A stretch of DNA of 64,000 bases from Arachnia propionica (GTDB lineage Bacteria > Actinomycetota > Actinomycetes > Propionibacteriales > Propionibacteriaceae), in contig NZ_RQZG01000004.1 of assembly GCF_003859805.1 (NCBI RefSeq), forward strand, positions 124,001 through 188,000, written 5' to 3'. The notes under the pieces were generated by a model that had not been told where the DNA came from, did no database searches, and saw nothing but the letters and a program-made list of their open reading frames with translations. Every line of letters starts with the position of its first letter. Position 1 is the stretch's first letter. Shown here piece by piece: positions 27,812 to 48,286 of this stretch. A program made the position numbers and the translations under genes.

Positions 27812-27834
27812 CAATGAAGCTTGAAGGAGAGCTG

Positions 27835-32306: not shown

Positions 32307-33704
32307 TCAGGGCTGGTCAGCGACCAGGGCCTCGGCGGTGTGGGCGATCGTCTCGACGAGCTCCCGGTCGTTCCGCAGATCGGGGGCCAACCAGCCGAGC
32401 ACCCGGGCGGCGTCCTCGACGAAGGAACCACCCACCAAGGCCCGCACCTCTGGCTCCGCGCTGTCCTTCAGCGGGGCACCGTGGCCTCGCAGATGCAGCA
32501 GCCACGCGGCGAGTGCCGTCACAGCGGCCCGGGGAAGCTGTCCCCGCTCCCGCCAGGCACGCACCGTCGGCATGATCCGCACCGGGAGCTTCTGAGATCC
32601 GTCGGCAGCGATCTGGGCCAGCAGATGCCGGATGTTGGGGTTCTCGTACCGGGAGACCAGAGCCCTGGTGTACTCCTCGTGGGGAACCCGAAGTCCCGGT
32701 GCGGCCTCTTCCCACCAGCTGTGGACCAGATCCCGCAGCCGGGGGTGAGCGATCGCCTCCGCGACGGTGGTCACCCCGAGCAGCGGACCCGTGTAGGCGA
32801 GCAGGGTGTGGGAACCATTGAGCAGCCACAGTTTGCGTTGCTCATAGGGCTCGACGTCGTCGACGATCATCGCCCCAGCCGACTCCCAGTCCGGGCGACC
32901 GGCAGGGAAATCACCGGAGATCACCCATTCACTGAACGGCTCGGTCGGCACCGGTGCACGGTCCAGGTATCCCTGCGTGGTCTGCACGGCAGTGATCTCC
33001 GCATCCGTGGTGGCAGGGGTGATCCGATCCACCATGCAGGTCGCCCAGCTGACGTTCTCCGCCAGCCAGGGCAGTACATCCGGTGCCGCAACGGCCGCGG
33101 CATCGGTGACCACACGGGCGAACGACGGCCCGTTGTCCGGCAGGTTGTCGCAGGGCAGGATCGTGATGGCACCGGCATCCGCGGTGGCACGTGCCACGAG
33201 TCCGGCCAGGAGCCGAACCGGTGCGGTCCCGAGCGTCAGGGAACCCAGCCGGGCCGGATCAACACCTCCCGTGAGAGCCGTGGCCAGCACCTCCAGGTCC
33301 GTGGCCACCGGGACGGCGGAGACATCGAGTCCTCCATCCGGGCGACGCCAGTACCCGGCCTCCGTCACCGTCGAGGTCACCACCGTCACGTCGGGGTCGG
33401 CCAGGTACCGCACCAGGGCCTCCAGGTCGTCCGCCGGATGGACCCGTGAGATCGAGGAGATCACCTCGAAGCCGTCCCCGTCGGCCCGTTTCGTGATGAG
33501 TGTGTAGAGCCCGTCCTGCGGGGTCAGCCACTCCGCGACGGTGGGGCGACGGCCTGTGAAGGCGGCGATGCCCCACCGGTCACGATCCGAGGCGTGCTCG
33601 GTGTACCAGGCCTGATGGGCACGGGTGAAGTTCCCGAGACCGAGGTGGACCATGCGGATGGGTCCGGCCGGTCGGCCATGGGTGTCACGGGTGAGTTCAG
33701 TCAT
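32307..33704 (-). CDS. uxuB: Fructuronate reductase / mannitol dehydrogenase family (UxuB)
   Basis: NAD-dependent polyol dehydrogenase family enzyme (465 aa) predicted to reduce D-fructuronate to D-mannonate. The N-terminal nucleotide-binding start MVHLGLGNFTRAHQAWY, the EWVISGDFPAGRPDWE segment and the KLWLLNGSHTLLAYTG catalytic stretch (Lys plus Asn/His) are family hallmarks. It overlaps uxaC (ATGA), which supplies its substrate. That pairing favours fructuronate over mannitol or tagaturonate. It ends the seven-gene minus-strand operon. The usual next enzyme, mannonate dehydratase (UxuA), is not in this window. Confidence 0.88.
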   Translation of the reverse strand: MTELTRDTHGRPAGPIRMVHLGLGNFTRAHQAWYTEHASDRDRWGIAAFTGRRPTVAEWLTPQDGLYTLITKRADGDGFEVISSISRVHPADDLEALVRYLADPDVTVVTSTVTEAGYWRRPDGGLDVSAVPVATDLEVLATALTGGVDPARLGSLTLGTAPVRLLAGLVARATADAGAITILPCDNLPDNGPSFARVVTDAAAVAAPDVLPWLAENVSWATCMVDRITPATTDAEITAVQTTQGYLDRAPVPTEPFSEWVISGDFPAGRPDWESAGAMIVDDVEPYEQRKLWLLNGSHTLLAYTGPLLGVTTVAEAIAHPRLRDLVHSWWEEAAPGLRVPHEEYTRALVSRYENPNIRHLLAQIAADGSQKLPVRIMPTVRAWRERGQLPRAAVTALAAWLLHLRGHGAPLKDSAEPEVRALVGGSFVEDAARVLGWLAPDLRNDRELVETIAHTAEALVADQP

Positions 33705-35143
33705 GGGAGTTCTCCTTGCTGGTCCAGTTTGAAGACGTGTCGGGGTTGGGTGGTCACGAGGTCGATGGCGGTCTCCAGGGCCTCTGCCTCCTCCAGACGG
33801 TGCTCGGTCACCAGGCCCGCCAGGAAGGCGCAGTCGACACGACGTGCCGCGTCGTGCCTGGCGGGGATGGAACAGAACGCGCGGGTGTCGTCGATGAATC
33901 CGGATCCCTTGCGGAGGCTGCCGTATCCCGTGACGGCACGGCGATGGCGCATCATCGCGTCGTTCTCATCGATGAACCACCAGGGTGCTCCGATGAACAA
34001 CCCCCGGTACCAGCCCGCCAGGGGGGCGAGTTCACGGGAGAACACGGTCTCGTCCATGGTGAACACCACGAGGTGGAAACCGTCAGCATTGCCGTAGGTG
34101 TCCAGGATGGGGTGCAGCGCATTCGCGAACTCGACGGCGATGGGGACATCCCCGCCGACATCGGCTCCGTAGCGCTCGAGTGTCGCCGTGTCGTGATTGC
34201 GGAACACCGCAGGATGGAGGGTCATCACGAGCCCGTCCTCGACGGCCAGGCGAGCCTGGTCATTGACCATGTGGCGTCGCAGCGCATCGGCCTCATCGGT
34301 GGTGATGACACCGCCGAGGGCACGGCGGAACAAGATCTCGGCGGTTCCCTCGTCGAGTCTCTCGCAACGGGCGTCGCGGTGTGAATGATCCGAGGAGACG
34401 GCGCCGTGCTCCCGGAAGTACTGCCGACGTCGACGCATCGCCTCCAGGTGCTCGGCGTAGCCGGTGATCTCGATCCCGGCGCTCTCACCCAGCCGTTGGG
34501 TGAGCTGCACCCAGTCGGCGCGGGCCGGCTCCAGGTAGCGGTCAGGACGGAAGGTCGGCATCACCCGCGAGGTCCACGACGGGTCATCAGCCAACCGGTC
34601 GTGTCCATGAAGGTCATCACACGGATCGTCGGTGGTGGCCAGGGCCTCGATGTTGAACCTTTCGTAGAGGGCGCGAGGACGGTACTCCGGGCGCTCCAGA
34701 CAGGCGGCGATGTGGTCGTAGATCAGGTCTGCGGTCTCGGCGCTCGGGACAGCCGTGATGCCGAAGACCTCGACGAACTGCGACGCGAACCAGTAGGCGA
34801 CCTGGGTGCCGCGGAAGATCGGCCAGTGGGTGCAGAACTGCCGGAACGCCTCGCGGGCCCGGGTGGGCGACAGTGGTGTCCCGACCGGGACCCCGAGCTG
34901 CGACAGCTCGATGCCGGCGATGCCGTGGAGCAGCCTGTTGGTGTAGTGGTCCGGGGTGAGCAGCAACGATGTCGGATCCTGGAACGGTCGGTCCTCGGAC
35001 AGCCATTCCACGGGGACGTGGCCGTGCGGGGAGATGATCGGCAGGTCCTTGACCGCTGCGTAGAGCTCGCGTGCCACGGCACGGGTGGTCGGGTCGGCGG
35101 GGAGGAGCCGATCGGGATGGATGGACAGGGTGGCAGGGGTCAT
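33701..35143 (-). CDS. uxaC: Glucuronate isomerase (UxaC)
   Basis: Metal-dependent isomerase of the amidohydrolase superfamily (480 aa, normal length) converting D-glucuronate to D-fructuronate. The N-terminal metal motif HGHVP lies at about residue 40. Further hallmarks are EDRPFQDPTSLL, YERFNIEALATTDDP and the C-terminal GWYRGLFIGAPWWFID. It starts in an ATGA overlap with lacI and ends in one with uxuB. It receives glucuronate released by UidA in the same operon. Confidence 0.95.
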   Translation of the reverse strand: MTPATLSIHPDRLLPADPTTRAVARELYAAVKDLPIISPHGHVPVEWLSEDRPFQDPTSLLLTPDHYTNRLLHGIAGIELSQLGVPVGTPLSPTRAREAFRQFCTHWPIFRGTQVAYWFASQFVEVFGITAVPSAETADLIYDHIAACLERPEYRPRALYERFNIEALATTDDPCDDLHGHDRLADDPSWTSRVMPTFRPDRYLEPARADWVQLTQRLGESAGIEITGYAEHLEAMRRRRQYFREHGAVSSDHSHRDARCERLDEGTAEILFRRALGGVITTDEADALRRHMVNDQARLAVEDGLVMTLHPAVFRNHDTATLERYGADVGGDVPIAVEFANALHPILDTYGNADGFHLVVFTMDETVFSRELAPLAGWYRGLFIGAPWWFIDENDAMMRHRRAVTGYGSLRKGSGFIDDTRAFCSIPARHDAARRVDCAFLAGLVTEHRLEEAEALETAIDLVTTQPRHVFKLDQQGELP

Positions 35144-36183
35144 CTTTGGGCCTTCCGTCTCGTGGTTCTCGTTCCAGCAGGGGCGATGCTGTCCCTGAAA
35201 TGGGCATGCATGGGGACGACGATCCGTTCCGCCCGTGAGGAGGAACGGTGACGGAGTTGATTGACCAGGGCCCGGGCCGCGCGGGAGCCCAGATCGTGCA
35301 GCAGGGGAGCCACACTGCTCAGCTTCGGTGTGGTGATGACCGAGGAGATGGAGTTGTCGATGCCGACCACGGAGACGTCAGCGGGGATGTTCCACCCCGA
35401 TCGTTGGGCAGCGTGCATGAAGCCGATCGCCATGAGGTCGTTGTAGGCGATGACCGCCGTGGTCGGACTGGACTCCCAGTCGTTGTGGGCCGCCACCCCA
35501 CCTTCCAGGGTGGGAGGGTACGCCTTGACCCTCCGGATGCTCAGCTGCAGCTCATGGCAGGCCTCCGAGATGGCCCGCCAACGCATCCCGTCAGCCCAGG
35601 AGGCAGGTGGGCCGGAGAGGTAGGCGAAGCTGACGTGTCCCAGCGAGGCCAGGTGTTCCACGACACGTCGCATGCCACGACCGGTGTCGGCGACCACGCT
35701 CGTCAACCCTGAGACGATCCGGTTGATCGAGACCACGGGACGCACCTTGGCCAGTTGCAGGATCGCCTGGTCACTGAGTCGTGACGCGGCGAGGGACAGG
35801 CCATCGACGAAGGGTGAGATCCGGGTGATGTGCTCCCTCTCGATCTCAGCGCTCTCCCGGGTGTCGATCGCGATGACGGCGAAGCCGTACAGCTCCGCCT
35901 CAGCCTCGAAGCCGCGGAGCACGTGTGCGAAGACCGGGTTCGCCGCATCGGCGATGGACATCCCCAGCACCTGTGTCGCCGTGCCCGGTTCCCCGGTCCT
36001 GACCGCCTTGGCGCGGTAGCCGAGTTCGTCGGCCACCCGCCGAACGTGCTCCGCCGTGTCCTGGTTGACCCGACCGGGACGGGCGAAGGTCCGGGACACG
36101 GTTGACGGGGCGACTCCCGCAGCCCTGGCGATGTCGTAGATGGTGACCCGCTTGCGGCGTGACCCCTCGGGGTCGTCAGTCAT
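35140..36183 (-). CDS. LacI family transcriptional regulator of the hexuronate operon
   Basis: 347 aa. N-terminal LacI helix-turn-helix VTIYDIARAAGVAPSTVSR with hinge helix, then a periplasmic-binding-protein-like effector domain (VLGMSIADAANPVFAHVLRG, FAYLSGPPASWADGMRW, VSVVGIDNS). Unusually it lies inside the operon, between larC (8-bp overlap) and uxaC (ATGA). It is therefore made only when the operon is transcribed, giving autoregulation. Probable effector: a hexuronate or hexonate. Its operator is not obvious; the shared direct repeats upstream of uidA and gnd are candidates, though their geometry is not classical for LacI. Confidence 0.9.
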   Translation of the reverse strand: MTDDPEGSRRKRVTIYDIARAAGVAPSTVSRTFARPGRVNQDTAEHVRRVADELGYRAKAVRTGEPGTATQVLGMSIADAANPVFAHVLRGFEAEAELYGFAVIAIDTRESAEIEREHITRISPFVDGLSLAASRLSDQAILQLAKVRPVVSINRIVSGLTSVVADTGRGMRRVVEHLASLGHVSFAYLSGPPASWADGMRWRAISEACHELQLSIRRVKAYPPTLEGGVAAHNDWESSPTTAVIAYNDLMAIGFMHAAQRSGWNIPADVSVVGIDNSISSVITTPKLSSVAPLLHDLGSRAARALVNQLRHRSSSRAERIVVPMHAHFRDSIAPAGTRTTRRKAQR

Positions 36184-37501
36184 GGTCGACCTCCTCGGGC
36201 CAGTGCTCCCCCGGCCGGAGCCCTGCCCGCTGTGCCTGTCGTTGCGCGGTGGCCAGGGCGATGCGCTGCGACCAACCGGTCAGCTCGGCCAGCCGTTCGA
36301 CATCCTTGAACTCGATGGTGGCGTGTCGGATCAGGTGCCCGTCCCCGGCGATCTTCACCTGCACGTCGAGTCCCTCGACCTGGATCCGGCGGAAATCACG
36401 ACGCAGCAGCCGACGCTGCTGCGGGGGGCTGATGCGCACTCCCAGGGTGCTGGTGTGCTCGAGCATCGCCCGGGTGAGATCGTCGACGTCGCGGGGATGG
36501 GCGAGGACGCACAGTGTGTGGGCGGGGCGGCCCTTCTTCATCACGATGGGCACCAGCCAGGCGTCGAGTGCGCCTGCACCGAGAAGTGTCTCGAGCACCC
36601 CCGGCCACAGCCTGGGGTCGAGGTCATCCACGTTGGCGGCGATCTCCTGCACCTCGTCCATCAGGTGCACGTCCCGCAGGGGTGTTCCGAGGACAGCTCT
36701 CAGCACTCCTGCCCGATCGGTCCGTTCCCTGCTGCCCGCGCCGACCCCGGTGGCATCGACGCGCATCGGGGGCAGGTCCGTGACCCCGGAACACAGTGCC
36801 CGGATCAGGGCCATCCCGGTGGGGGTGCACAGCTCACCGACCTCGGCAGGGCCACCGGCGTCGACCAGCCATCCGGTCGCGAGTTCCAGCACGGCCGGCG
36901 GAGGCACGCTCATCACCCCGTGCTGGGTGCGGACCGTTCCGGCCCCCAGGGCCGTGACCGAGGACGTGGCACGAATGACCCCGAGGGTGCGCACCGCCTC
37001 GCACACGGCGACGATGTCACCGATCGAGTCGAGGGCGCCGACCTCGTGGAAGTGGACCTCCTCGACGGTGACCCCGTGCACCTTCGCCTCGGCCTCCGCC
37101 AGCAGGGTGAAGGCCAGCGTGGCCGTCTCGCGGGTCGTCCCAGGGATCGCGGAATCCTCGAGAAGCTCCAGGACGTCACCCAGGTGTCGTACCGGAGGAT
37201 GGGGCTCGTCCGCCAGCACGTCGACCTTGCAGGCGGTGAAGGGGCCCCGTCGGAGTTGCCGTCGTTGGAGACGGAGCCGTCCCGGGGCGACGAGCTCGAG
37301 AACCGCAGCGACGCTGCCGGCGTCGGCCCCGGCGCCCAGCAGGGCAGCGAGCAGCATGTCCCCGGAGGCTCCCTGGGAGGTGTCCAGCCACAGCAGTCGC
37401 TGAGGTGTCGGCGATGGTCGGATGACGCCCGGAAGGATCGCCTCTCCTCGGGGCACCTGCTGTCCGTCCGCCGTGGGCAGGGTGGTCAGGTGGTCGTGCA
37501 T
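36176..37501 (-). CDS. larC: Nickel-pincer cofactor nickel insertase LarC
   Basis: CTP-dependent enzyme that inserts nickel into the pyridinium-3,5-bisthiocarboxylic acid mononucleotide made by LarB and LarE (441 aa). The N-terminus LLWLDTSQGASGDMLLAALL, the VEEVHFHEVGALDSIGDIV segment (His and Asp/Glu rich) and the C-terminal VDDLDPRLWPGVLETLLGAG are typical. In Lactiplantibacillus larC is split and joined by frameshift; here it is one continuous frame. Start at ATG 37501, overlapping the larB stop. An upstream open frame to 38395 is a shadow of larB and larE. Confidence 0.93.
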   Translation of the reverse strand: MHDHLTTLPTADGQQVPRGEAILPGVIRPSPTPQRLLWLDTSQGASGDMLLAALLGAGADAGSVAAVLELVAPGRLRLQRRQLRRGPFTACKVDVLADEPHPPVRHLGDVLELLEDSAIPGTTRETATLAFTLLAEAEAKVHGVTVEEVHFHEVGALDSIGDIVAVCEAVRTLGVIRATSSVTALGAGTVRTQHGVMSVPPPAVLELATGWLVDAGGPAEVGELCTPTGMALIRALCSGVTDLPPMRVDATGVGAGSRERTDRAGVLRAVLGTPLRDVHLMDEVQEIAANVDDLDPRLWPGVLETLLGAGALDAWLVPIVMKKGRPAHTLCVLAHPRDVDDLTRAMLEHTSTLGVRISPPQQRRLLRRDFRRIQVEGLDVQVKIAGDGHLIRHATIEFKDVERLAELTGWSQRIALATAQRQAQRAGLRPGEHWPEEVDHD

Positions 37502-38172
37502 CAGGACTTCCTGTCCGCGGCGATCTGAGCCGCCAGGTGACCGGCACCGTAGCCGTTGTCGATGTTGACCACCCCCACCCCGGGGGCGCAGGAGCTGAGC
37601 ATCGCCAGGAGGGCAGCGACCCCGGAGAACGTGGCACCGTAGCCGACGGAGGTGGGAACCGCGACGACGGGGCACCGGCTCAGTCCTGCCACCACGGGGA
37701 CCAGTGCCCCGTCCATGCCCGCGACGACGATGATGACCGTGGCCTCCTCCAGCGCCCCACGGTGGGCCAGGATGCGGTGCAGACCAGCCACTCCGACATC
37801 GGAGATCTCCTGCACCGGTCTTCCCAGGTGGGAGGCGGTCAGGGCCGCCTCCCGGGCGACCGGCAGGTCGGAGGTGCCGGCACACACCACGAGGACCTGC
37901 CCACCGGTGGGCGGGGGTGGGGCGGGTGGCCACACGACCATGCGGGCATCGAGATGATGAGCCGCCTCGGGAAGGATGTCCGCGATCCCGGCGGCCTGTT
38001 CCTCCTCGACCCGGGTGAACAGCAGCGGACCGAGCTCTTCGGTTGCCGCACGCTCCCGCCAGAGGGTGGCGATCTGCCGGAGTTGTGCCACGGACTTGCC
38101 ACTGCACAGCACTGCCTCGGGAAAGCCTCGACGCTCGAACCGGTCGAAGTCCAGATTGGGCATGTGGGTCAC
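37501..38172 (-). CDS. larB: Nickel-pincer cofactor carboxylase/hydrolase LarB
   Basis: Carboxylates the pyridine ring of nicotinic acid adenine dinucleotide and hydrolyses it, the first step of Ni-pincer nucleotide synthesis (223 aa). The N-terminal half includes AVLCSGKSVAQL. The C-terminal half is the PurE-like domain: VVCAGTSDLPVAREAALTA, IIVVAGMDGALVPVVAGL, PVVAVPTSVGYG and VGVVNIDNGYGAG. Start taken as GTG 38172, a GTGA overlap with larE and GGGG upstream; ATG 38163 is the alternative. The gene lies in order larE-larB-larC, all overlapping. Confidence 0.94.
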   Translation of the reverse strand: MTHMPNLDFDRFERRGFPEAVLCSGKSVAQLRQIATLWRERAATEELGPLLFTRVEEEQAAGIADILPEAAHHLDARMVVWPPAPPPPTGGQVLVVCAGTSDLPVAREAALTASHLGRPVQEISDVGVAGLHRILAHRGALEEATVIIVVAGMDGALVPVVAGLSRCPVVAVPTSVGYGATFSGVAALLAMLSSCAPGVGVVNIDNGYGAGHLAAQIAADRKS

Positions 38173-39011
38173 GGTGTTCCCCCTGACTGCAGCTGGAGCG
38201 TGAACACCCCGGAGCGGATCCCGGCCAGATCCACGGTGACATGGGTGAACCCGACCTCCCGCACGGAGCGGAGCACGGAGCTTCGCACCTGTGGGTCGGC
38301 GAGACGGTGGAGTTCTCCCTCGGGGACCTCGATGCGTGCGGTCTCCCCGTGGTGTCGAACCCGACAATCGGTGAAACCGGCGGTGAGCACCGCATCCTCG
38401 GCGTGGTCGATCTGGGCGAGCTTCTCGGGGGTCACTGGGTCGCCGTGGGGGATCCGGCTCGCCAGGCAGGGTGATGCGGGTTTGTCGGCGCTCGGTACCC
38501 CGAGAGCGCGTCCCAGTTCCCGGATCTGGGCCTTGGTCAGGCCGGCATCCGCCAAGGGGTGGCAGACGGCGTGTTCGATCGCGGCCCGACGGCCGGGGCG
38601 GTCCGGGCGGGCCAGGTCGTCGGCGTTCTCCCCGTAGGCCACGGCCTGGATCCCGAACTCCGCCAGGCGGTTCCCGATGTCCACGAACAGGGTGTTCTTG
38701 CAGTGGTAGCAACGGTCCAGGTCGTTTCGGGCGTAGCGGGGATCCGTGACCTCCTGCGTCGCCAGCTCCACCAGCTCGAGCCCGAGATGGCGGGCCTGCC
38801 GCACGGCGAGGGTGTGTTCACGTCGTGCCAGGGACGGGGAGACCGCCAGCAGCAGGAGCACGGCATCGGCACCCCGAAGCCGTGCGATGACGGTGGCCAG
38901 GACACTCGAGTCCACGCCGCCGGAGTAGGCCACGCCGATCCTGCCGTGGGGCAGGGCCTGCTCGACGTCGTGCACCCATCGGCGTTGCTCAGAGGTCAAG
39001 GGAGTGCTCAT
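38169..39011 (-). CDS. larE: Nickel-pincer cofactor sulfur transferase LarE
   Basis: ATP-dependent sulfur insertase that converts the carboxylates of the LarB product to thiocarboxylates (280 aa). The PP-loop is VAYSGGVDSSVLA (about residue 27). Cys residues lie in DLDRCYHCKNTLF and in ASPCLASRIPHG. The latter corresponds, I believe, to the sacrificial Cys of Lactiplantibacillus LarE; the extra CxxC suggests the version that uses a [4Fe-4S] cluster and is catalytic. Start ATG 39011 overlaps the uidA stop (ATGA). A frame extending to 39149 lies inside uidA. Confidence 0.93.
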   Translation of the reverse strand: MSTPLTSEQRRWVHDVEQALPHGRIGVAYSGGVDSSVLATVIARLRGADAVLLLLAVSPSLARREHTLAVRQARHLGLELVELATQEVTDPRYARNDLDRCYHCKNTLFVDIGNRLAEFGIQAVAYGENADDLARPDRPGRRAAIEHAVCHPLADAGLTKAQIRELGRALGVPSADKPASPCLASRIPHGDPVTPEKLAQIDHAEDAVLTAGFTDCRVRHHGETARIEVPEGELHRLADPQVRSSVLRSVREVGFTHVTVDLAGIRSGVFTLQLQSGGTP

Positions 39012-40768
39012 CCGTTTTGCCCACCGAGCCAGCGTTCGCGCACCTTGTACGCGGCGGCCTTCGGGGTCCTGTCCCGGGTGAACATGCCCTTGCGATTGCC
39101 TCCCACACGCATGATGCCAGGGATGGTCTGGAAGTCCGCGAAGTTCCACGTCTGCTCTCCGACCACCTCCGGGAACTCGTCGAAGACCCGGTGATACATG
39201 TCGAAGAACTTCTCCTGGTAGTCCTCCGACCAGGGACGCGCCTGGAGGTCACGCATCCCGGCGAGGGTGTCCGGACCGTACTCGGTGAAGATGACCGGTT
39301 TGCCGGGACACAGGCTGATCCACCCCTGGATCTCCTGTCGCAGGAGGGACTCGGCCAGGACGAGGTCGTTGTTCTGCCAGTACCAGCCGTAGTAGCGGTT
39401 GAGCATCACGACGTCGAACAGGTCGATGATGCGCTCCTTGTCCGGGGTGGAGATCATGACGTTGACATAGCCGACGGGTCGGCTCGGGTCCGCCTCCCGG
39501 GCAGCGGCCGCGAGGGGCTCGAAGTAGCTGCGTGAGGCATCCGTGTGGGACTCCGGCTCATTGGCGATGGACCACAGCACCACGCTGGGGTGGTTCTTGT
39601 CTCGCGCAATCAGTTCCCGGATGTGGGCCTCGTGGACCCGCTGGGTCTCGGCGTTGATCGTGTCCTGGCTGAAGGTCACGGTCGGTTGGTTCGGGCTGCC
39701 GAAGATGCCTCCGCTGATGCCGATGTTGAGGCCGACGGCGGCGGTCTCGTCGATGACGACGATGCCCTGCTGGTCCGCGAAGTCCATGACCTCATCGGCG
39801 TACGGGTAGTGGGAGGTGCGGAACGAGTTGGCCCCCTGCCAGCGCATCAGCTCGAAGTCGTGGACCATCATCACGTCGTCGTGGCCCTTGCCCCGCACGA
39901 GGTTGTCCTCGTGCCTGCCGTAGCCCTTGAAGTGGAACGGGCGGCCGTTGATGAGGAACTGGGAGTCCCTCACCTCGACGGTACGGACCCCGAAGGGTTG
40001 GGGGTAGAGGTCGTCATCGGCGATGACCTCGAGGGTGTACAGGTAGCCCCGGCCGGGCTCCCACAAGGTGACCTCCGGGATCTTCACACGCCCCTCGGCC
40101 CCCTCGGCCCGGGCCACGACCTGCTGCTGTGCGTCGAGGATCCTGACCCCGATCTGCCGGGCACCGTCGGCGACCACCCGATAGTTGACGGTGCCATCCA
40201 GCTCAGTGGTGATCGTGACGTCACTGACGGCGACGGCCGGGCGGGTGATGAGTTTCACGCCGCGGTGCAGGCCCGCGTAGTTGTAGAAGTCGTGGAAGTA
40301 GCGTTGGTGGATTCCGGACTCCTCAACCTCGAGGTAGCCGGGAGGAATGCTCTGCCAGGACAGCCGGTTGTCCACGGCGACCGTGAGCAGGAAGGATTCT
40401 CCCGGGACCACGTGGTCGGTGATGTCGGCCTCGAAGGGCAGGTATCCGCCGACGTGCCGTGCGACCTCCTGGCCGTTGACCCACACCGTCGCGGCATGGG
40501 TGGCGGCCCCGAACCAGAGGTGCAGTCGGTCCCCGTCATGGAGCCGGGGAGCCTGGACGCGACGCTGGTACCAGACCTCCCCGACGTGGTCGTGGACGTG
40601 AGGCGAGACCGTCACGTCGTTGTACGAGGAGGGGACGGGCATCGGTCGCGGCTCGGGCAGGGGATTCCCGGCCCAACCGGCCTCGCGACCATCCGCGTCG
40701 AGTTGGAACTCCCACACGCCGTCCAGTGGGGTCACGGTTCGAGACGGAGAGGTACGGGGGAACAGCAT
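39008..40768 (-). CDS. uidA: Beta-glucuronidase (GH2)
   Basis: Intracellular GH2 beta-glucuronidase (586 aa) freeing glucuronic acid from imported glucuronides. The jelly-roll N-terminal domain (GVWEFQLDADGREAGW, VWYQRR) and Ig-like domain are followed by the TIM barrel with acid/base Glu in WSIANEPESH and nucleophile Glu in PVIFTEYGPDT. The glucuronide-specific NxK motif is present in VGGNRKGMFTRDRTPK, which marks true glucuronidases over galactosidases. No signal peptide. ATG 40768 has GAAGGAG upstream. First gene of the operon uidA-larE-larB-larC-lacI-uxaC-uxuB, divergent from the transporter gene. Confidence 0.96.
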   Translation of the reverse strand: MLFPRTSPSRTVTPLDGVWEFQLDADGREAGWAGNPLPEPRPMPVPSSYNDVTVSPHVHDHVGEVWYQRRVQAPRLHDGDRLHLWFGAATHAATVWVNGQEVARHVGGYLPFEADITDHVVPGESFLLTVAVDNRLSWQSIPPGYLEVEESGIHQRYFHDFYNYAGLHRGVKLITRPAVAVSDVTITTELDGTVNYRVVADGARQIGVRILDAQQQVVARAEGAEGRVKIPEVTLWEPGRGYLYTLEVIADDDLYPQPFGVRTVEVRDSQFLINGRPFHFKGYGRHEDNLVRGKGHDDVMMVHDFELMRWQGANSFRTSHYPYADEVMDFADQQGIVVIDETAAVGLNIGISGGIFGSPNQPTVTFSQDTINAETQRVHEAHIRELIARDKNHPSVVLWSIANEPESHTDASRSYFEPLAAAAREADPSRPVGYVNVMISTPDKERIIDLFDVVMLNRYYGWYWQNNDLVLAESLLRQEIQGWISLCPGKPVIFTEYGPDTLAGMRDLQARPWSEDYQEKFFDMYHRVFDEFPEVVGEQTWNFADFQTIPGIMRVGGNRKGMFTRDRTPKAAAYKVRERWLGGQNG

Positions 40769-40832
40769 GGCACTCCTTCGGGTCCGGTGGGCTGTTTTCA
40801 TTGGATCAAGTCCGGCGATCCACCCCGCCAGA

Positions 40833-40881
40833 TTGCCATTTGTTGCCGGCCTGGTCCGGGGAGCGCGGCAACATTCGGCAA
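40833..40881. promoter_or_regulatory. Paired direct-repeat operator between uidA and the GPH transporter
   Basis: TTGCC (40833) and TTGCC (40843) are 10 bp apart. After 19 bp come the mirrored GGCAA (40867) and GGCAA (40877), again 10 bp apart. The right element read on the minus strand is TTGCCGAATGTTGCC, one base different from TTGCCGAATCTTGCC at 46407. Ten-bp spacing puts each pair on one face of the helix. Probably the control site for both divergent promoters. Confidence 0.65.
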
Positions 40882-40959
40882 GTCAGGGGATCCGAGTCGC
40901 CGGGGTGGGAGGGTGGGCACCACGCCGCGACGCTGCGGCAGCCGCGAGAGGAACCACAG

Positions 40960-42387
40960 ATGACACCCACCACGTCGGGGACCACCAGACGCCCCTTCGG
41001 AATGCGCGACAAGATCGGGTACATGTTCGGTGATTTCGGCAACGATTTCACCTTCATCCTGCAGTCGGCGTTCTTCATGCTCTTCTACACCAACGTCGTC
41101 GGGATCAATCCCGGCCACGTCGGGCTCCTGCTGCTGACGGCACGGGTGCTCGACGGCTTCACTGATGTCGGCATGGGAATCCTCGTCGATCGCCTACCGG
41201 TCAAGGCCGGCGGGGCGAAGTTCAAGCGGTGGATCAAGTTCATCGCCATCCCGGTGGCGGTTGCCTCTGCGCTGATGTACATGGCCTTCGTCGCCGACTT
41301 CGACTCCTACACCGCGAAGTTGGTGTGGATGTGCGCCACCTACATGTTGTGGGGGTCGGTGTGCTACACCGCGGTCAACATCCCCTACGGTTCGATGGCC
41401 TCGGTGGTCTCCGACAATCCCGACCACCGCGCAGAGTTGTCGGTGTTCCGTTCCACCGGTGCCACCCTTGCGCAGCTCATCATCATGGGGGCGCTTCCCC
41501 TGCTGGTCTACACCACGAACGAGGCTGGGGTCTCCGTCCTGTCCGGGCCTCGGATGAGCATCGCGGCCGCCGTGTGCGCGGTCCTCGCGGTCGGATGCTA
41601 CGCCCTGTGCTATCGGCTGGTCGAGGAGCGCGTCCCCTCCGGCTCGGGCAAGGACGGGACCAGCCCCGGGATCGCGACGATGCTGCGCGCGGTCTTCACC
41701 AACCGTGCGTTGCTGGGGCTCATCGTCGCAGCCATGCTCCTGCTGCTGTCGATGCTCTTCCTGGGCCAGATGGTCAGCTACCTGTTCCTCAACTACTTCG
41801 GGGACGGCAAACTGTCCTCTCCCGCCTCGATCGCGGGCATCGCCCCGGCGTTGCTGCTGATCGTGCTCGCACCGATGCTGTCCAGGCGGTTCGGCAAGGC
41901 CGAGACCGGGATGGTCGCGATGTTCGGTGCCGGGGCCCTGTTCGTGCTGGCCTTCTTCATCAAGATCCAGAACCCGGTGTGGTGGATCGTCGTCTATGCC
42001 GTCGGGATGTTCGCCATCTCGGTGTTCAACTACCTGGTGTGGGCCTTCATCACCGATGTGATCGACTTCCAGGAGGTCCGCAGCGGCTCCCGTGACGACG
42101 GGACCGTCTATGCGATCTACTCCTGGGCACGCAAGCTCGGTCAGGCACTGGCCGGCGGTCTCACCGGATGGTCGCTCGGACTCATCGGCTTCGACGCGCA
42201 GGCCGCGAAGCAGGGGATGGCCCAGACGCCGGAGGTCAACGAGGGGATCTACATGCTGGCCAACCTCGTCCCCGGTGTCGGGTGCCTGCTGGTCGGGGCA
42301 GCCCTGTTGTTGCTCTACCCGCTGAAGAAGTCCGTGGTCGAGGAGAACACCAGGACCCTGCGGGAGCGTCGTGCCGCCAAGGCCTGA
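40960..42387 (+). CDS. GPH-family sugar (glucuronide):cation symporter
   Basis: 475 aa, twelve hydrophobic segments, of the glycoside-pentoside-hexuronide symporter family. The start is typical: MRDKIGYMFGDFGNDFTFI, then DVGMGILVDRLPVKAGGAKF with the Asp/Arg loop, VNIPYGSMASVVSDNPDHR, and ITDVIDFQEVRSGSRDDG in the second half. Being divergent from the glucuronidase operon and sharing its operator, it is most likely a glucuronide importer like UidB/GusB. I chose ATG 40960 (MTPTTSG), with AGAGGA upstream, over a frame extending through the intergenic operator. Confidence 0.9.
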   Translation: MTPTTSGTTRRPFGMRDKIGYMFGDFGNDFTFILQSAFFMLFYTNVVGINPGHVGLLLLTARVLDGFTDVGMGILVDRLPVKAGGAKFKRWIKFIAIPVAVASALMYMAFVADFDSYTAKLVWMCATYMLWGSVCYTAVNIPYGSMASVVSDNPDHRAELSVFRSTGATLAQLIIMGALPLLVYTTNEAGVSVLSGPRMSIAAAVCAVLAVGCYALCYRLVEERVPSGSGKDGTSPGIATMLRAVFTNRALLGLIVAAMLLLLSMLFLGQMVSYLFLNYFGDGKLSSPASIAGIAPALLLIVLAPMLSRRFGKAETGMVAMFGAGALFVLAFFIKIQNPVWWIVVYAVGMFAISVFNYLVWAFITDVIDFQEVRSGSRDDGTVYAIYSWARKLGQALAGGLTGWSLGLIGFDAQAAKQGMAQTPEVNEGIYMLANLVPGVGCLLVGAALLLLYPLKKSVVEENTRTLRERRAAKA

Positions 42388-42398
42388 TCCGGACCGCT

Positions 42399-42432
42399 GT
42401 GTGGCCCGCCCCGGCTCCGGGGCGGGCTACAC
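42399..42432. terminator. Bidirectional terminator between GPH transporter and larA homologue
   Basis: GC-rich hairpin with arms 42399-42414 and 42417-42432, complementary apart from one G.T pair. It is very stable (GCCCGCCCCGG/CCGGGGCGGGC core) and lies between two convergent genes. No U-tract. Confidence 0.7.
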
Positions 42433-42503
42433 CATGTGTGCCGGGAGCACACGTCGTTGTCGGGCGGGTTCTCGCAACCACGTGCTGAGCCTCGCGGCCC
42501 GGC

Positions 42504-43802
42504 TCAACCCTGGGCCCCGGACCGGACCCGGTGCAGCAGTTCCCCGGCGTTCGGCACGACGAGGGTGTCGGGATCGGCCTCGAGAGCGAGGAGGTCGACC
42601 TCCTCGGGGTCCAGGTGTCTCAGGCCCAAGGACTCGACGACCTCACGCGGGATCCCCGTGGCCAGGGTCACCGTCACCCGGTTGGTCTCCACCCCCGTGA
42701 CCGGGTCGTAGTCCCCGAGCCCACGGAGATGGGTCGAATGGGCCAGTTCACCCCACGGATGGTTCTTGAACCGGTCCCACTGCTCGACGTAGTACTGCCG
42801 GTTGTGGTAGCCGATCTCCAGGATTCCCGGATGCATCACCGACACCTCGGTGATGTGGGGTGCGTAGATGATGAGCTCGCCGCCGTCGGCCACCACGGGC
42901 TCCAGCTTGTAGAACCCCTTGGCCCCGGTCCACATGTCCTCGTACATCGTCGGGATGAGCGAGACCACCCGCGGGTAGGTGCGGTCGACATGGCGCACGT
43001 GGACCTGGCTGGAGACCTCCGCGCATGCCTCCCATGCGGTCCGGGAATCACCGAAGGCCAGGAAGTTCAGGGAATCGCTGCCCGGGGCCACGATCATGCC
43101 GAGGAGCAGTTTCGTCGCGGGGATCAGTTCGGTGGCGGCGTCGATCATCTGCCTCACCGGCGTGATCCCGGTGGCACCGATCATCTCGTGGGAGGTGATG
43201 AGCGCACCCACCCAGTGCGACATGTCGATCACGTCATGACCCGACAGCCCGGGGTAGAAGTACTTGTTGCCACCCGAGATGCCCACCACCTCGTGTGGGA
43301 GGACCGGGCCGAGGATCAGGCAGATGTCGGTCTCGACCGCCATCCTGTTCACCAGTACCCGCATCGGACGATCCCGCAGCCTGCCGGAGGTCAGCTCCTC
43401 GATCCGTGCGGCAGGGATGGTGCCGAGGTCGGCAAAGGTGTCCTCGTCACGCCACCGGTGGTTGTGGATGCTCCAGCCGGGGTAGGTCTGCTCGAACCTC
43501 CCGGGCTCGCACCCCATGAGACGGGCGATGGCCTCGTCACCCATGTAGTCGTGGGTACCGAGGGCGATGACCACCCGCACCGAAGCCGGACGTGACCCGA
43601 GGGCGTCACGGATGTGTTTCGACAGCTGGGCGACGGGAGCATGGCGGGTGCCGTCCGGGACGATGAGGGTGATGTGTCTGCCGTCAAGATCGTGGGTGCT
43701 GAGACAGCGGTGGACGAAGTCCCGGATCTCCTCATCGGTCAGGGTCCGCTCGGGGCCACCGACGGACTCGGCCTCGGCGACCCCCGGGTAGAGTCTGGTC
43801 AT
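42504..43802 (-). CDS. LarA-family nickel-pincer racemase/epimerase (candidate mannonate/gluconate 2-epimerase)
   Basis: 432 aa member of the lactate racemase superfamily, which uses a nickel-pincer nucleotide to move a hydride at C2 of alpha-hydroxy acids. Visible hallmarks: LIVPDGTRHAPVAQLSKHI, VIALGTHDYMGDEA, HNHRWRDEDTF, the presumed cofactor-binding Lys in ISGGNKYFYPGLSG and the presumed Ni-ligand His in IDMSHW. The complete cofactor pathway LarBCE lies in the facing operon. Neighbours are a sugar-acid kinase, Gnd and the uronate enzymes, which make D-mannonate. Its C2 epimer is D-gluconate, so I infer that reaction. A lactate racemase is less likely here. ATG 43802 has GAGGAGG upstream. 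Confidence 0.85.
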   Translation of the reverse strand: MTRLYPGVAEAESVGGPERTLTDEEIRDFVHRCLSTHDLDGRHITLIVPDGTRHAPVAQLSKHIRDALGSRPASVRVVIALGTHDYMGDEAIARLMGCEPGRFEQTYPGWSIHNHRWRDEDTFADLGTIPAARIEELTSGRLRDRPMRVLVNRMAVETDICLILGPVLPHEVVGISGGNKYFYPGLSGHDVIDMSHWVGALITSHEMIGATGITPVRQMIDAATELIPATKLLLGMIVAPGSDSLNFLAFGDSRTAWEACAEVSSQVHVRHVDRTYPRVVSLIPTMYEDMWTGAKGFYKLEPVVADGGELIIYAPHITEVSVMHPGILEIGYHNRQYYVEQWDRFKNHPWGELAHSTHLRGLGDYDPVTGVETNRVTVTLATGIPREVVESLGLRHLDPEEVDLLALEADPDTLVVPNAGELLHRVRSGAQG

Positions 43803-43812
43803 CGTCGCCTCC

Positions 43813-44889
43813 TCACCTGACGACCCTCGCGTTGCCCTCCCACACCGACCAGACCTGGGCCTCGTCCGCGGGAAGGGCATGGTCGCGCAGGGTGGTCGCA
43901 GCCATGGCCCCGGTGGCCCAGCCGAACTGCATGCAGCGTTCGGGGGACCAGCCGTTGAGGATCCCGTGGAGCACGCCGCCGACGGAGGCGTCGCCACCAC
44001 CGATCCGATCGAGCACCTCGATCTCACGCAACGCGGCGACGGCGAACTCTCCCTGTGACCACAGGATCATTCCCCACCGGTGTCGATTGGCCGAGATCAC
44101 CTCTCGCAGGGAGGTGCCGATGCACAGGGCATCAGGGTACTGCTGCCGGATCGTGAGGATCATCTCCCGGTACTGCTCGATCTGCTCGTCGATGTCAGTG
44201 CCTCCCGCCCGGGGACCCGAGATGCCGAGGGTCAGCTGGAAGTCCTCCTCGTTGCCGTAGAGGATGTCGCAGTGGGAGGCGATGGCCGTGAAGGCCGAGG
44301 ACAGCTCCTCCTCGCGTCCCTTCCAGAACGAGGCGCGGTGGTTGAGGTCGAATGAGACCCGGGTGCCGTGTTCCTTCGCCCGTGCCGCCAGCTCGACACA
44401 GAACTCGCTGGTTCTGGGTGACAGCGCGGCGACCAGGCCGGACATGTGCAGGATCTTCACCCCTTCGTCCCGGAACAGCCGATCGAGGTCGAAGTCGGCG
44501 ATGGCCAGGTCGCGTCCCACCTCGCCGGCCCGGTCGTTCCAGACCCGTGGGGCGCGACCTCCGAAGCCTGAGTCCGCGATGTTGAACTGGTGACGGTAGC
44601 CCCAGGCGTCGCCCTGAGCCTTGTCAGGTCCTTCGTAGGCCATGCCGCGGGCCCGCAGGTCGGCCTTGATCAGTGAGGAGATGGGCGAACCTGCCACGAA
44701 GTTGGTCAGCACCTTGGTCGGGAGCCCCAGCGCAGCCACGACGGAGGCCACGTTGGTCTCGGCCGAGGTGGCCTGCATCAGGAAACGACTCGAGACGTGC
44801 ACCGCCTCCCGGTTCTCCGGCGTGAGGCGTACTCCCATCGAGGTGGGGACCACCAGTGCCCAGCGGGCGTCATCGCGCAATTCCATCAT
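43813..44889 (-). CDS. PfkB-family sugar-acid kinase (KdgK-like; gluconate or 2-keto-3-deoxygluconate)
   Basis: Ribokinase-like kinase of 358 aa. Substrate-side features are ATSAETNVASVVAALGLPTK and HMSGLVAALSPRTSEF. The catalytic loop is VLDRIGGGDASVGG, the GGGD variant seen in 2-keto-3-deoxygluconate kinases rather than the usual GAGD; the base Asp is kept. Start ATG 44889 overlaps the gnd stop (ATGA) with GGAGG 7 nt upstream. Placed between gnd and the LarA homologue it would phosphorylate gluconate to 6-phosphogluconate, feeding Gnd. If a mannonate dehydratase exists elsewhere it could instead act on KDG. The sequence alone does not decide. Confidence 0.82.
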   Translation of the reverse strand: MMELRDDARWALVVPTSMGVRLTPENREAVHVSSRFLMQATSAETNVASVVAALGLPTKVLTNFVAGSPISSLIKADLRARGMAYEGPDKAQGDAWGYRHQFNIADSGFGGRAPRVWNDRAGEVGRDLAIADFDLDRLFRDEGVKILHMSGLVAALSPRTSEFCVELAARAKEHGTRVSFDLNHRASFWKGREEELSSAFTAIASHCDILYGNEEDFQLTLGISGPRAGGTDIDEQIEQYREMILTIRQQYPDALCIGTSLREVISANRHRWGMILWSQGEFAVAALREIEVLDRIGGGDASVGGVLHGILNGWSPERCMQFGWATGAMAATTLRDHALPADEAQVWSVWEGNARVVR

Positions 44890-46340
44890 GCTTTCACCTC
44901 CGGTCGTCCGGGTTCGGCCCACCGGGTGTGGAACGTACCCTCGTCATCGATGCGTCGATACGTGTGCGCACCGAAGAAGTCCCGTTGCCCCTGGATCAGG
45001 CAGGCCGGCAGGCGGCTGGTGCGGATGCCGTCGTAGTAGGCCAGCGACGATGAGAACACCGGGGTGGGGACACCGTGCAGGGCTGCGTCCGAGACGACAC
45101 GGCGCCACGACGGCAGTGCTGCCGCCACGCGTGTGGCGAAGAAGTCGTCGGCCAGCAGCAGGGGCAGATCCGGGTCGGTATCGCAGGCACGGGCGATCTC
45201 ACCCAGGAATCGTGCCCGGATGATGCAGCCGCCCCGCCAGATCCGTGCCAGTGCCGCCAGATCGATCTCCCAGCCGTACTCGAGCGCTGCCGCGCGGATC
45301 TCGCCCAGTCCCTGGGAGTAGGCGATGAGCTTCGAGGCGTAGAGGGCCTGCCGGACGTCCTCGATGAAGGTGTCGGCATCGGTGACCCGCCACGACCGGG
45401 AGCCGGCCGCGAAGGTCTGTGCGGCGACCCGCTGGGGCAGGGAGCTGGACAGTGCCCGGGCGAAGGTGGCCTCGGCGATCCCGGTCACGGGGACCCCGAG
45501 GTCGAGGGCGACCTGGGTGGTCCAGACCCCGGTTCCCTTCTGACCGGCCGCGTCGAGGATCACGTCGACCAGTGGTCTGCCGGTGCGCGGGTCCACCTGA
45601 CGCAGCACCTCGACGGTGATCTCCAGGAGGTAGGAGTCGAGCTCACCGGAGTTCCACTGCGCGAAGACGTCCGCGATCGCGGCGGGTTCGAGTCCGAGCG
45701 CCGAACGCAACAGGTGGTACGCCTCCCCGATGACCTGCATGTCGGCGTATTCGATGCCGTTGTGGACCATCTTGACGAAATGACCCGCACCGTCAGCCCC
45801 GATGCGGGTGCAGCAGGGCTCGCCATCGACCTTCGCGGCGATCTTCTCGAACATGGGACCCAGCCGGTCATATGACTCCTGGGAGCCACCGGGCATGATC
45901 GAGGGGCCCCACAGGGCTCCCTCCTCACCACCCGAGACGCCACACCCGACGAAGTGCAGCCCTTGCTCACGCAGACGTGCCTCGCGGCGTCGCGTGTCGG
46001 TGAACAGGGAGTTCCCGCAGTCGACGATGATGTCACCGGGTTCCATCCGGGAGGCCAGGTCGTCGATGACGTCGTCGGTGGCCTGCCCTGCCTGGACCAT
46101 GACGAGGGCGACGCGCGGTCTCTCCAGACAGGCCACGAACTCCTCCATCGATGTGGTCGGAAGGAACCGGGCCTGCGCACCGTGGGCGGCCATGACCTGT
46201 TCGGTTCGTTCGACGGAGCGGTTGTGGATGGCGACACGGTGGCCGTTGCGGGCCAGGTTGCGGGCGAGGTTCGAACCCATCACACCCATACCGGTGACAC
46301 CGATGTCAGCGGAGGCGTTTCCTGGGGCGGGCAGAGACAT
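44886..46340 (-). CDS. gnd: 6-phosphogluconate dehydrogenase (decarboxylating)
   Basis: Full-length dimeric 6PGDH (484 aa): 6-phosphogluconate + NADP to ribulose 5-phosphate, CO2 and NADPH. N-terminal Rossmann motif IGVTGMGVMGSNLARNLA, NADP-type loop HNRSVERTEQV, substrate signature GCGVSGGEEGALWGPSIMPG, catalytic Lys in HFVKMVHNGIEYADM, and C-terminal GQRDFFGAHTYRR. ATG 46340 has AAGGAC upstream. It leads the operon gnd-pfkB-larA homologue, an unusual place for a pentose phosphate enzyme. This suggests it serves gluconate made from hexuronates. Confidence 0.96.
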   Translation of the reverse strand: MSLPAPGNASADIGVTGMGVMGSNLARNLARNGHRVAIHNRSVERTEQVMAAHGAQARFLPTTSMEEFVACLERPRVALVMVQAGQATDDVIDDLASRMEPGDIIVDCGNSLFTDTRRREARLREQGLHFVGCGVSGGEEGALWGPSIMPGGSQESYDRLGPMFEKIAAKVDGEPCCTRIGADGAGHFVKMVHNGIEYADMQVIGEAYHLLRSALGLEPAAIADVFAQWNSGELDSYLLEITVEVLRQVDPRTGRPLVDVILDAAGQKGTGVWTTQVALDLGVPVTGIAEATFARALSSSLPQRVAAQTFAAGSRSWRVTDADTFIEDVRQALYASKLIAYSQGLGEIRAAALEYGWEIDLAALARIWRGGCIIRARFLGEIARACDTDPDLPLLLADDFFATRVAAALPSWRRVVSDAALHGVPTPVFSSSLAYYDGIRTSRLPACLIQGQRDFFGAHTYRRIDDEGTFHTRWAEPGRPEVKA

Positions 46341-46447: not shown

Positions 46448-46522
46448 CCACACCGCCACGGGGAGAGCCGGTGGTTGTCTCGAGGGAAACCACTGGAAGA
46501 CAGCCGCGAAGGAGTGGACGAG

Positions 46523-48286
46523 ATGGTGGATCTGAGAGCGACACCGTTCAATCTCGATGAGGGCGGCGTCGCCTGGGTCGAGGCGACGATCGCTGGGATG
46601 ACCGATGAGGAGAAGATCGGTCAGCTCTTCGTCAACATGGGGTCGGAGCGGTCCGAGGAGTACCTCACAGCGGTGTTGGACGAGTTCCACATCGGGGCGG
46701 TGCGCTACAACCCGGGCACCGCGGAGGAGGTGTGGGAGCAGAACCGCATCCTCCAGGAGAGGTCGAAGCTGCCGATGTTGATCGCGGCGAACACCGAGGC
46801 CGGCGGCAACGGTGCCTGCACTGATGGCACCTATGTCGGTCACGGGGCCAAGATCGGCTGCACCCATGAGGTGCGCTACGCCTACGAACTGGGTCGCATC
46901 TCGGGGATCGAGGCCGCTGCGGTCGGGTGCAACTGGTCCTTCGCCCCGATCGTCGACATCTACCGCAACTGGCGCAACCCCGTCGTGTCGAGACGATCCT
47001 TCGGCGGGGACGTCGATCTGGTCATCGAGATGTCCTTGGCCTACATGCGCGGCATCCGGGAATCCGGGATCGCTCCGGCCGCCAAGCACTGGCCCGGTGA
47101 TGGCATCGACGAACGGGACCACCACCTGTCCCACGCCCCCAACTGGTTGACCACGGATGAATGGGACGAGACCTTCGGAAGGTTGTACCAGACCCTGATC
47201 GATGCCGGGTTGCCGTCGATCATGGCCGGCCACATCGCTCTGCCGAGCTATCAGCGGCACTTCAATCCAGCCATGGCAGACGATGACATCCTGCCGGCCT
47301 CGTTGTGCAAGGAGATCACCACGGATCTGCTGCGTGGCAAGCTGGGTTTCAACGGTGTGGTGGTCACCGATGCCTCACACATGGTCGCGATGACCGGTGC
47401 CATGAAGCGCAGCGAGTTGCTGCCGGCCGCCATCGAGGCCGGGTGTGACATGTTCCTGTTCTTCAACGATCCCGAGGAGGATTTCCGATGGATGATGGAG
47501 GGGTGGCGTTCCGGCAGACTGAGTGACAATCGCCTCGACGATGCCCTGCATCGCATCCTCGGGCTCAAGGCGATGCTCGGGCTCCACGAACGTCCCCGTG
47601 AGGAACTGCTGCCGCCGAAGCAGGAGGCCCTGGCCCGGATCGGACTCCCGGAGTCGAAGGCCGTGGCTGTGGAGATCGCCGATCGTGCGATCACCCTGGT
47701 CAAGAACAAGGATCCGCAGGTCCTGCCGTTGTCGGTGGAGCGCTACCCCCGGGTGCTCGTCGTGCCCATCTCCTCACCCCCCAGCCCCTTCGCGATGATG
47801 GTCGACAGCGGCGCGGGACATCCGGCGGACAAGGTGGTCGCGAAGCTGAACGAACGTGGCTACCGGGCTGAGCGGTACGTCAGCCAACTGGAGCAGGTGC
47901 AGGGCAGGTCTCCCGAGGAGGTCAGGCAGATCCTGCGTGACGCCTATGCCGGCAAGTCACCGATCTCAGGGCTCACCGACAACCATGACCTGGTGGTGTC
48001 CGTGGCCGAGGTCAACGGCCTGGGGCAGCCCGTGGAACGGCCCTACTGGCCGGGTACGAAAGGAACCCTGGACATGCCGTGGTACGTCCATGAGGTTCCC
48101 ACCATCGTGATCTCCACGGCCTCGCCGAACCTGTTGGCCGACATGCCCCAGGTCAAGACCTTCATCACAGCATTCGACGACCAGGACTTCACCCTCGATG
48201 CGGTGCTGGACAAGCTGGAGGGTCGAAGTGAGTTCCGCGGCCGTCCCGCCACCGAGATGTTCCCGTTCGCCGACACCCGGATCTAG
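46523..48286 (+). CDS. Glycoside hydrolase family 3 (beta-N-acetylhexosaminidase-like), intracellular
   Basis: 587 aa GH3 enzyme. The barrel shows LPMLIAANTEAGGNG, the KHWPGDG segment with following DERDHHLSH (His/Asp pair of the NagZ-like branch) and nucleophile Asp in GVVVTDASHMVAM. A C-terminal alpha/beta sandwich is present (about residues 400-570). No signal peptide, so it works on imported oligosaccharides. Together with UidA it could dismantle disaccharides of glucuronate and N-acetylhexosamine, such as those from hyaluronan or chondroitin. This is inference from context. ATG 46523 has AAGGAG upstream; frames further left cross the operator. Confidence 0.88.
   Translation: MVDLRATPFNLDEGGVAWVEATIAGMTDEEKIGQLFVNMGSERSEEYLTAVLDEFHIGAVRYNPGTAEEVWEQNRILQERSKLPMLIAANTEAGGNGACTDGTYVGHGAKIGCTHEVRYAYELGRISGIEAAAVGCNWSFAPIVDIYRNWRNPVVSRRSFGGDVDLVIEMSLAYMRGIRESGIAPAAKHWPGDGIDERDHHLSHAPNWLTTDEWDETFGRLYQTLIDAGLPSIMAGHIALPSYQRHFNPAMADDDILPASLCKEITTDLLRGKLGFNGVVVTDASHMVAMTGAMKRSELLPAAIEAGCDMFLFFNDPEEDFRWMMEGWRSGRLSDNRLDDALHRILGLKAMLGLHERPREELLPPKQEALARIGLPESKAVAVEIADRAITLVKNKDPQVLPLSVERYPRVLVVPISSPPSPFAMMVDSGAGHPADKVVAKLNERGYRAERYVSQLEQVQGRSPEEVRQILRDAYAGKSPISGLTDNHDLVVSVAEVNGLGQPVERPYWPGTKGTLDMPWYVHEVPTIVISTASPNLLADMPQVKTFITAFDDQDFTLDAVLDKLEGRSEFRGRPATEMFPFADTRI

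Follow-up and report, generated by a model that had tools for sequence, protein, structure and literature searches.

How does a bacterium without the dehydratase UxuA make use of the D-mannonate that it derives from glucuronides? This question is raised by a locus of Arachnia propionica in which genes for the release and conversion of glucuronate lie next to genes for synthesis of the nickel-pincer nucleotide (NPN) cofactor, a LarA homologue, a PfkB-family kinase and a 6-phosphogluconate dehydrogenase (Gnd). An earlier note on the window (i.e., the whole 64,000-nucleotide stretch of DNA that was analysed) had proposed that mannonate is flipped to gluconate, phosphorylated and oxidised by Gnd. 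This proposal gained support from several sides, namely a GntE2-like active site and fold of the LarA homologue, the lack of both UxuA and phosphogluconate dehydratase (Edd), a second gnd, a continuous gene run in a relative and the gluconokinase families found in related loci. We consider it likely that the cluster constitutes a dehydratase-free glucuronide catabolic route, leading from mannonate via gluconate into the pentose phosphate pathway, and we infer that flux passes through it.

The genes are arranged in two minus-strand runs (Table 1). One (40801 to 32307) holds uidA, larE, larB, larC, lacI, uxaC and uxuB with tight spacing or overlaps, the start of larE overlapping the stop of uidA, and the other (46340 to 42504) holds gnd, pfkB and larA. 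The runs are separated by a GPH symporter gene, which is divergent from uidA and convergent with larA. That UidA, UxaC and UxuB share a run with LarE, LarB and LarC was thus read correctly in the earlier note, with LacI also lying inside it. The gene list given there for a "facing operon" of gnd, PfkB and LarA was likewise right, but its orientation was not: gnd-pfkB-larA and the uidA operon share one strand and so do not face each other. The tool results establish the identities of UidA, UxaC, LarB, LarC, LarE and Gnd (best PDB match of the latter, 8I4N), and the NPN synthesis set is present in full, LarB, LarC and LarE all scoring above curated cut-offs. Against the glucuronide transporter model, the symporter scored 200 bits, below the cut-off. 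A lacI gene was present in 42 of the 80 related actinobacterial LarA loci; no LacI operator palindrome common to the uidA and gnd upstream regions was found.

Table 1. Features of the cluster, with positions in the window and the matches on which the assignments are based.
Feature	Coordinates	Strand	Evidence
uxuB-like mannitol-dehydrogenase-family reductase (predicted fructuronate -> D-mannonate)	32307..33704	-	Pfam Mannitol_dh; best PDB sequence match 4IM7 YdfI
uxaC, glucuronate isomerase (glucuronate -> fructuronate)	33701..35143	-	NF002794 515 bits > cut-off 387
LacI-family regulator, probable local repressor	35140..36183	-	Pfam LacI + Peripla_BP_3
larC, nickel insertion for NPN cofactor; start approximate	36176..37503	-	TIGR00299, NF052512 > cut-offs (178, 118 bits)
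larB, NPN cofactor synthesis; start approximate	37501..38199	-	NF033503 264 bits > cut-off 175
larE, sacrificial sulfur transferase, NPN synthesis	38169..39017	-	TIGR00268 262 bits > cut-off 150
uidA, GH2 beta-glucuronidase releasing glucuronate	39008..40801	-	NF007538 818 bits > cut-off 544
GPH-family cation symporter, probable glucuronide importer	40960..42387	+	TIGR00792 274 bits > cut-off 231
LarA homologue, predicted NPN-dependent D-mannonate/D-gluconate 2-epimerase	42504..43802	-	NF052594 163 bits, below cut-off; 4NAR best PDB match
PfkB-family kinase of the sugar-acid type, predicted to phosphorylate gluconate (or mannonate) at C6	43813..44886	-	Pfam PfkB; DLNHRASFW + GGGD motifs
gnd, decarboxylating 6-phosphogluconate dehydrogenase	44886..46340	-	TIGR00873 651 bits, NF006765 712 bits, both > cut-offs
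GH3-family glycosidase or phosphorylase; divergent from gnd	46514..48286	+	Pfam Glyco_hydro_3

In the proposed pathway, glucuronides would be imported by the GPH symporter and cleaved by UidA to free glucuronate, which UxaC would convert to fructuronate and UxuB would reduce to D-mannonate. LarB, LarC and LarE would make the nickel-pincer nucleotide that charges the LarA homologue, and the latter would invert C2 of D-mannonate to give D-gluconate. A kinase (PfkB here; FGGY or GntK in relatives) would form 6-phosphogluconate, from which the dedicated Gnd would produce ribulose 5-phosphate, CO2 and NADPH. The first two steps, to D-mannonate, are shared with the Ashwell pathway (UxaC-UxuB-UxuA-KdgK-KdgA), whereas beyond this point, with UxuA missing, the epimerase, a gluconate-type kinase and Gnd would replace the dehydratase, the KDG kinase and the aldolase.

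For UxuB, the profile scores (219 bits for fructuronate reductase, cut-off 603; 252 bits for D-arabinitol dehydrogenase) were both below cut-off. A 40% identical relative in another genome of the genus (G007) adjoins lacI, uxaC and uxuA, an arrangement that supports mannonate as the UxuB product. This homologue, the protein family and the neighbouring uxaC point to fructuronate as the likely substrate of the window enzyme. Because UxuB consumes one NAD(P)H, which is what Gnd produces, the route would be approximately redox-neutral overall to ribulose 5-phosphate. The yield of NADPH stated in the earlier note would therefore follow only if UxuB uses NADH.

The step that sets the proposed pathway apart is assigned to the LarA homologue. 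Its best LarA-family model was NF052594 (NPN_18, 'putative hexonate epimerase') with 162.6 bits, which falls short of the curated cut-off of 500 bits, so that the protein is not filed under this model. In a PDB sequence search, T. maritima GntE2 (4NAR) scored 175 bits and the next entry, a lactate racemase, 30. The predicted structure (pLDDT 89) also had 4NAR as its top fold match (TM 0.87, E 1.6e-38), followed at lower rank by the malate racemase Mar2 (1.5e-21) and the lactate racemase LarA (1.7e-19). In the structure alignment, identity to GntE2 was 29%, and all of the NPN-binding and catalytic residues of GntE2 (Arg, Lys, His; Asp, two His, Lys) were matched: D38/R41/H73/H154/K164/H180/K287 of GntE2 correspond to D42/R45/H76/H162/K172/H188/K287 here (numbering counted from window position 43778; the start ATG is at 43802). 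These cofactor and catalytic residues were invariant across 20 relatives. The three hexonate groups of the family are marked by an E-V or E-S loop after the catalytic His and a Trp in helix 11 (PMC7583248), and the window protein carries this signature (E163 and V164 after the catalytic His; W283 in helix 11). In vitro, both GntE2 and GntE1 of C. glutamicum form D-gluconate from D-mannonate (PMC7583248). From sequence and model, we predict D-mannonate/D-gluconate as the substrate pair of the LarA homologue.

In a LarA tree, the window protein fell within an 11-row clade (100/100) that is sister to a clade of Dermabacteraceae and Corynebacterium, in which C. glutamicum GntE1 is probably to be placed. 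Identity to the Corynebacterium orthologues was 51-54%. Two Corynebacterium genomes (L177, L178) encode an additional LarA homologue that is only distantly related (28-29% identity).

We examined the whole host genome (G000; 3.40 Mb, 77 contigs, 100% complete) for enzymes of competing routes. No UxuA-family protein is encoded in it, extending to the genome what the earlier note had reported for the window, and no Edd either, the sole Edd/IlvD-family protein being IlvD by score. A KDPG aldolase, for which the earlier note had suggested a genome-wide search, does exist, together with its own KDG kinase, at a separate sugar-acid locus (C76; L053 2970-10493), which also encodes an enolase-superfamily dehydratase-like protein, an SMP-30-like protein and a 1278-residue protein without NCBIfam match. 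As uxuA is absent, there is no uxuA plus kdgA set elsewhere in the genome, the finding named in that note as evidence against the route. Another gnd, 57% identical to that of the cluster, lies at C2, making the cluster gnd an extra copy.

Within the genus, gnd, pfkB and larA are repeatedly found together as a unit, and this recurrence in related genomes argues that the arrangement did not come about by chance. In one genome (G013), nine genes, gnd-pfkB-larA-larE-larB-larC-lacI-uxaC-uxuB, form a single run on one strand. Another relative (G001) has two gnd-pfkB-larA units, with larEBC near each (L033 C1:2575000-2594900; L034 C1:869000-888900). Across 80 LarA loci from actinobacteria, many of which were truncated, uxuB was found nearby in 42, uxaC in 39, gnd in 19 and uidA in 19, and larE, larB and larC in 36, 33 and 32, respectively. 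LarA of Kribbella had no uxaC nearby, and the Corynebacterium loci, which mostly hold larEBC with LarA, had no uxaC or gnd within 20 kb. No relatives were found in the viral contigs scanned.

A window-type LarA was present in only 2 of 248 other genomes of a phylum-wide sample, so the mutual exclusion of LarA and UxuA was assessed in genomes known to carry LarA. UxuA was missing from 47 of 50 such actinobacterial genomes (those reached through their LarA loci, the host excluded), the others giving two strong matches and one marginal one. Among the 13 genomes of the genus that encode UxaC, LarA occurred in seven, UxuA in four and both in none (Fisher p = 0.02). The control genomes showed UxaC without UxuA in C. 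glutamicum, and UxuA in T. maritima. One family of the order (f4) is a counter-example, most of its members having LarA and UxuA together. A search for UxuA and KdgA yielded no dehydratase or aldolase in the uronate cluster or in related loci, with a single exception. In this Geodermatophilaceae locus (L073, 4709-17081), LarA is found among an IlvD/Edd-family dehydratase, galactonate dehydratase, KDG kinase and KDPG aldolase; substrates may therefore vary across the wider LarA clade.

The kinase of the window is a PfkB of the sugar-acid type without an equivalog match. Its substrate is uncertain, as both its predicted fold and its profile models are nearest to KDG kinases; we tentatively assign it gluconate (or mannonate). 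Having neither the FGGY nor the P-loop gluconokinase fold, it would be a functional equivalent of these enzymes at most. Its orthologues (at least 73%) were present in 8 of 9 LarA-positive genomes of the genus, the ninth being a fragmented assembly, versus 0 of 28 LarA-negative ones (Fisher p = 2e-7). An FGGY kinase (at least 50% identity to the L103 query) adjoins the uronate genes in about 15 loci, in most cases immediately downstream of uxuB. The best model of the FGGY kinases tested was the gluconokinase TIGR01314, with scores of 330-390 bits, which lie below its strict cut-off and about 46-86 bits above xylulokinase. In one locus (L127), whose LarA branches elsewhere in the tree, the FGGY position is occupied by a PfkB 68% identical to that of the window, and in a MAG (L079) a GntK-type gluconokinase gene (TIGR01313, 185 bits, above the cut-off of 114) shares a few bases with larA. 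In a further locus (L062), gnd adjoins larA without pfkB. Since three unrelated kinase families appear in one role and two of them are gluconate kinases, we regard this interchange as the best evidence that the product of LarA is gluconate.

These kinases also bear on the order of steps. Conceivably, D-mannonate is first phosphorylated by PfkB, and the LarA homologue then epimerises 6-phosphomannonate at C2 to 6-phosphogluconate. Phosphorylation comes first in cell extracts of Lactobacillus suebicus, for which the genes are unidentified (PMC6978723), pfkB precedes larA in the run, and the KM of GntE1 for unphosphorylated D-mannonate is very high (120 mM; PMC7583248), a value that suggested another native substrate for the GntE1 group. 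We nevertheless hold this order to be unlikely: the kinases that substitute for PfkB in relatives are gluconokinase-like (FGGY, and a GntK above cut-off whose gene overlaps larA), and the substrate-loop Glu is shared with GntE2, an enzyme that takes free mannonate as its substrate. If true, it would supply the first genes for an L. suebicus-type route, and the LarA homologue would be an NPN enzyme with a phosphorylated sugar acid as its substrate.

The likeness of PfkB to KDG kinases would fit a scheme in which another enzyme, e.g., the enolase-superfamily protein of C76, dehydrates mannonate or gluconate, PfkB phosphorylates the KDG formed, the C76 aldolase cleaves it, and LarA and Gnd serve otherwise. 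C76 does encode a dehydratase-like protein along with KDG kinase and KDPG aldolase, but that KDG kinase is its own and only 22% identical to the window PfkB, and the dehydratase-like protein most resembles galactonate dehydratase (154 bits), scoring far below the cut-off for ManD (86 bits against 550). As dehydratase and aldolase genes are also absent from the uronate cluster and, L073 excepted, from the related loci searched, while gnd and pfkB remain with larA in relatives, this scheme appears very improbable. Equally improbable is the idea that the LarA homologue acts on some other hexonate or aldarate (e.g., D-glucarate to mannarate), its neighbours marking only general sugar-acid use. Uronic or aldaric acids were considered for the GntE1 group on account of its high KM (PMC7583248), and LarA of L073 lies in a galactonate locus. 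Beside the window LarA, however, no aldarate gene was recognised; LarA keeps company with uxaC, uxuB, gluconokinases and gnd, in most cases taking the place of UxuA, and among the UxaC/UxuB products mannonate alone becomes a Gnd substrate through C2 inversion and phosphorylation. Epimerisation of free mannonate followed by phosphorylation of gluconate is thus the reading that we retain.

The concept of such a pathway is already known. For Thermotoga, Rodionova et al. 2012 (cited in PMC7583248 and PMC6978723) proposed that mannonate is shunted via gluconate into the pentose phosphate pathway, and the epimerase reaction was demonstrated in 2020 (PMC7583248). The T. maritima route, with GntE2 (LarAH20), resembles ours in NPN-dependent C2 epimerisation, in catalytic and cofactor residues, in fold, and in the link to uronate genes and a gluconate kinase. 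It rests on gene order and the assayed epimerase in an organism that also has UxuA, whereas here, in actinobacteria, the epimerase appears to stand in for UxuA across dozens of genomes, with a PfkB kinase, a dedicated gnd and larBCE adjoining in the window. GntE1 (LarAH19) of C. glutamicum likewise belongs to an actinobacterial LarA group linked to uronate genes and epimerises D-mannonate, in a genome with UxaC and without UxuA, but the Corynebacterium loci differ in having no linked uxaC and gnd. The galacturonate pathway of L. suebicus similarly starts with an isomerase route and proceeds through C2 inversion to 6-phosphogluconate dehydrogenase, UxuA, KdgK and KdgA being missing from the proteome; apart from its inverse order of phosphorylation and epimerisation, it differs in leading to the phosphoketolase pathway (PMC6978723).

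In the literature searched, which included few subscription papers, we found no description of the actinobacterial system, and this version with its unusual kinase seems undescribed. What is new is its distribution among actinobacteria, the near-exclusion of UxuA, the exchange of one kinase family for another and, probably, a native role for the actinobacterial LarA homologues, whose true substrate biochemists had left open. PfkB would be a probable third, non-homologous gluconate kinase, and growth on glucuronides is predicted to be nickel-dependent.

The GH3 gene next to gnd is kept in several relatives (75-79%). In view of its best PDB match (384 bits), the GH3 beta-glucoside phosphorylase BglX, its product may serve to release a disaccharide that contains a glucuronide, or to phosphorolyse it, a possible upstream glycan step that the proposed route could dispense with. 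Near the cluster (27814-30033), a BNR-repeat protein related to neuraminidases is also encoded, which suggests the use of host or mucin-type glycans.
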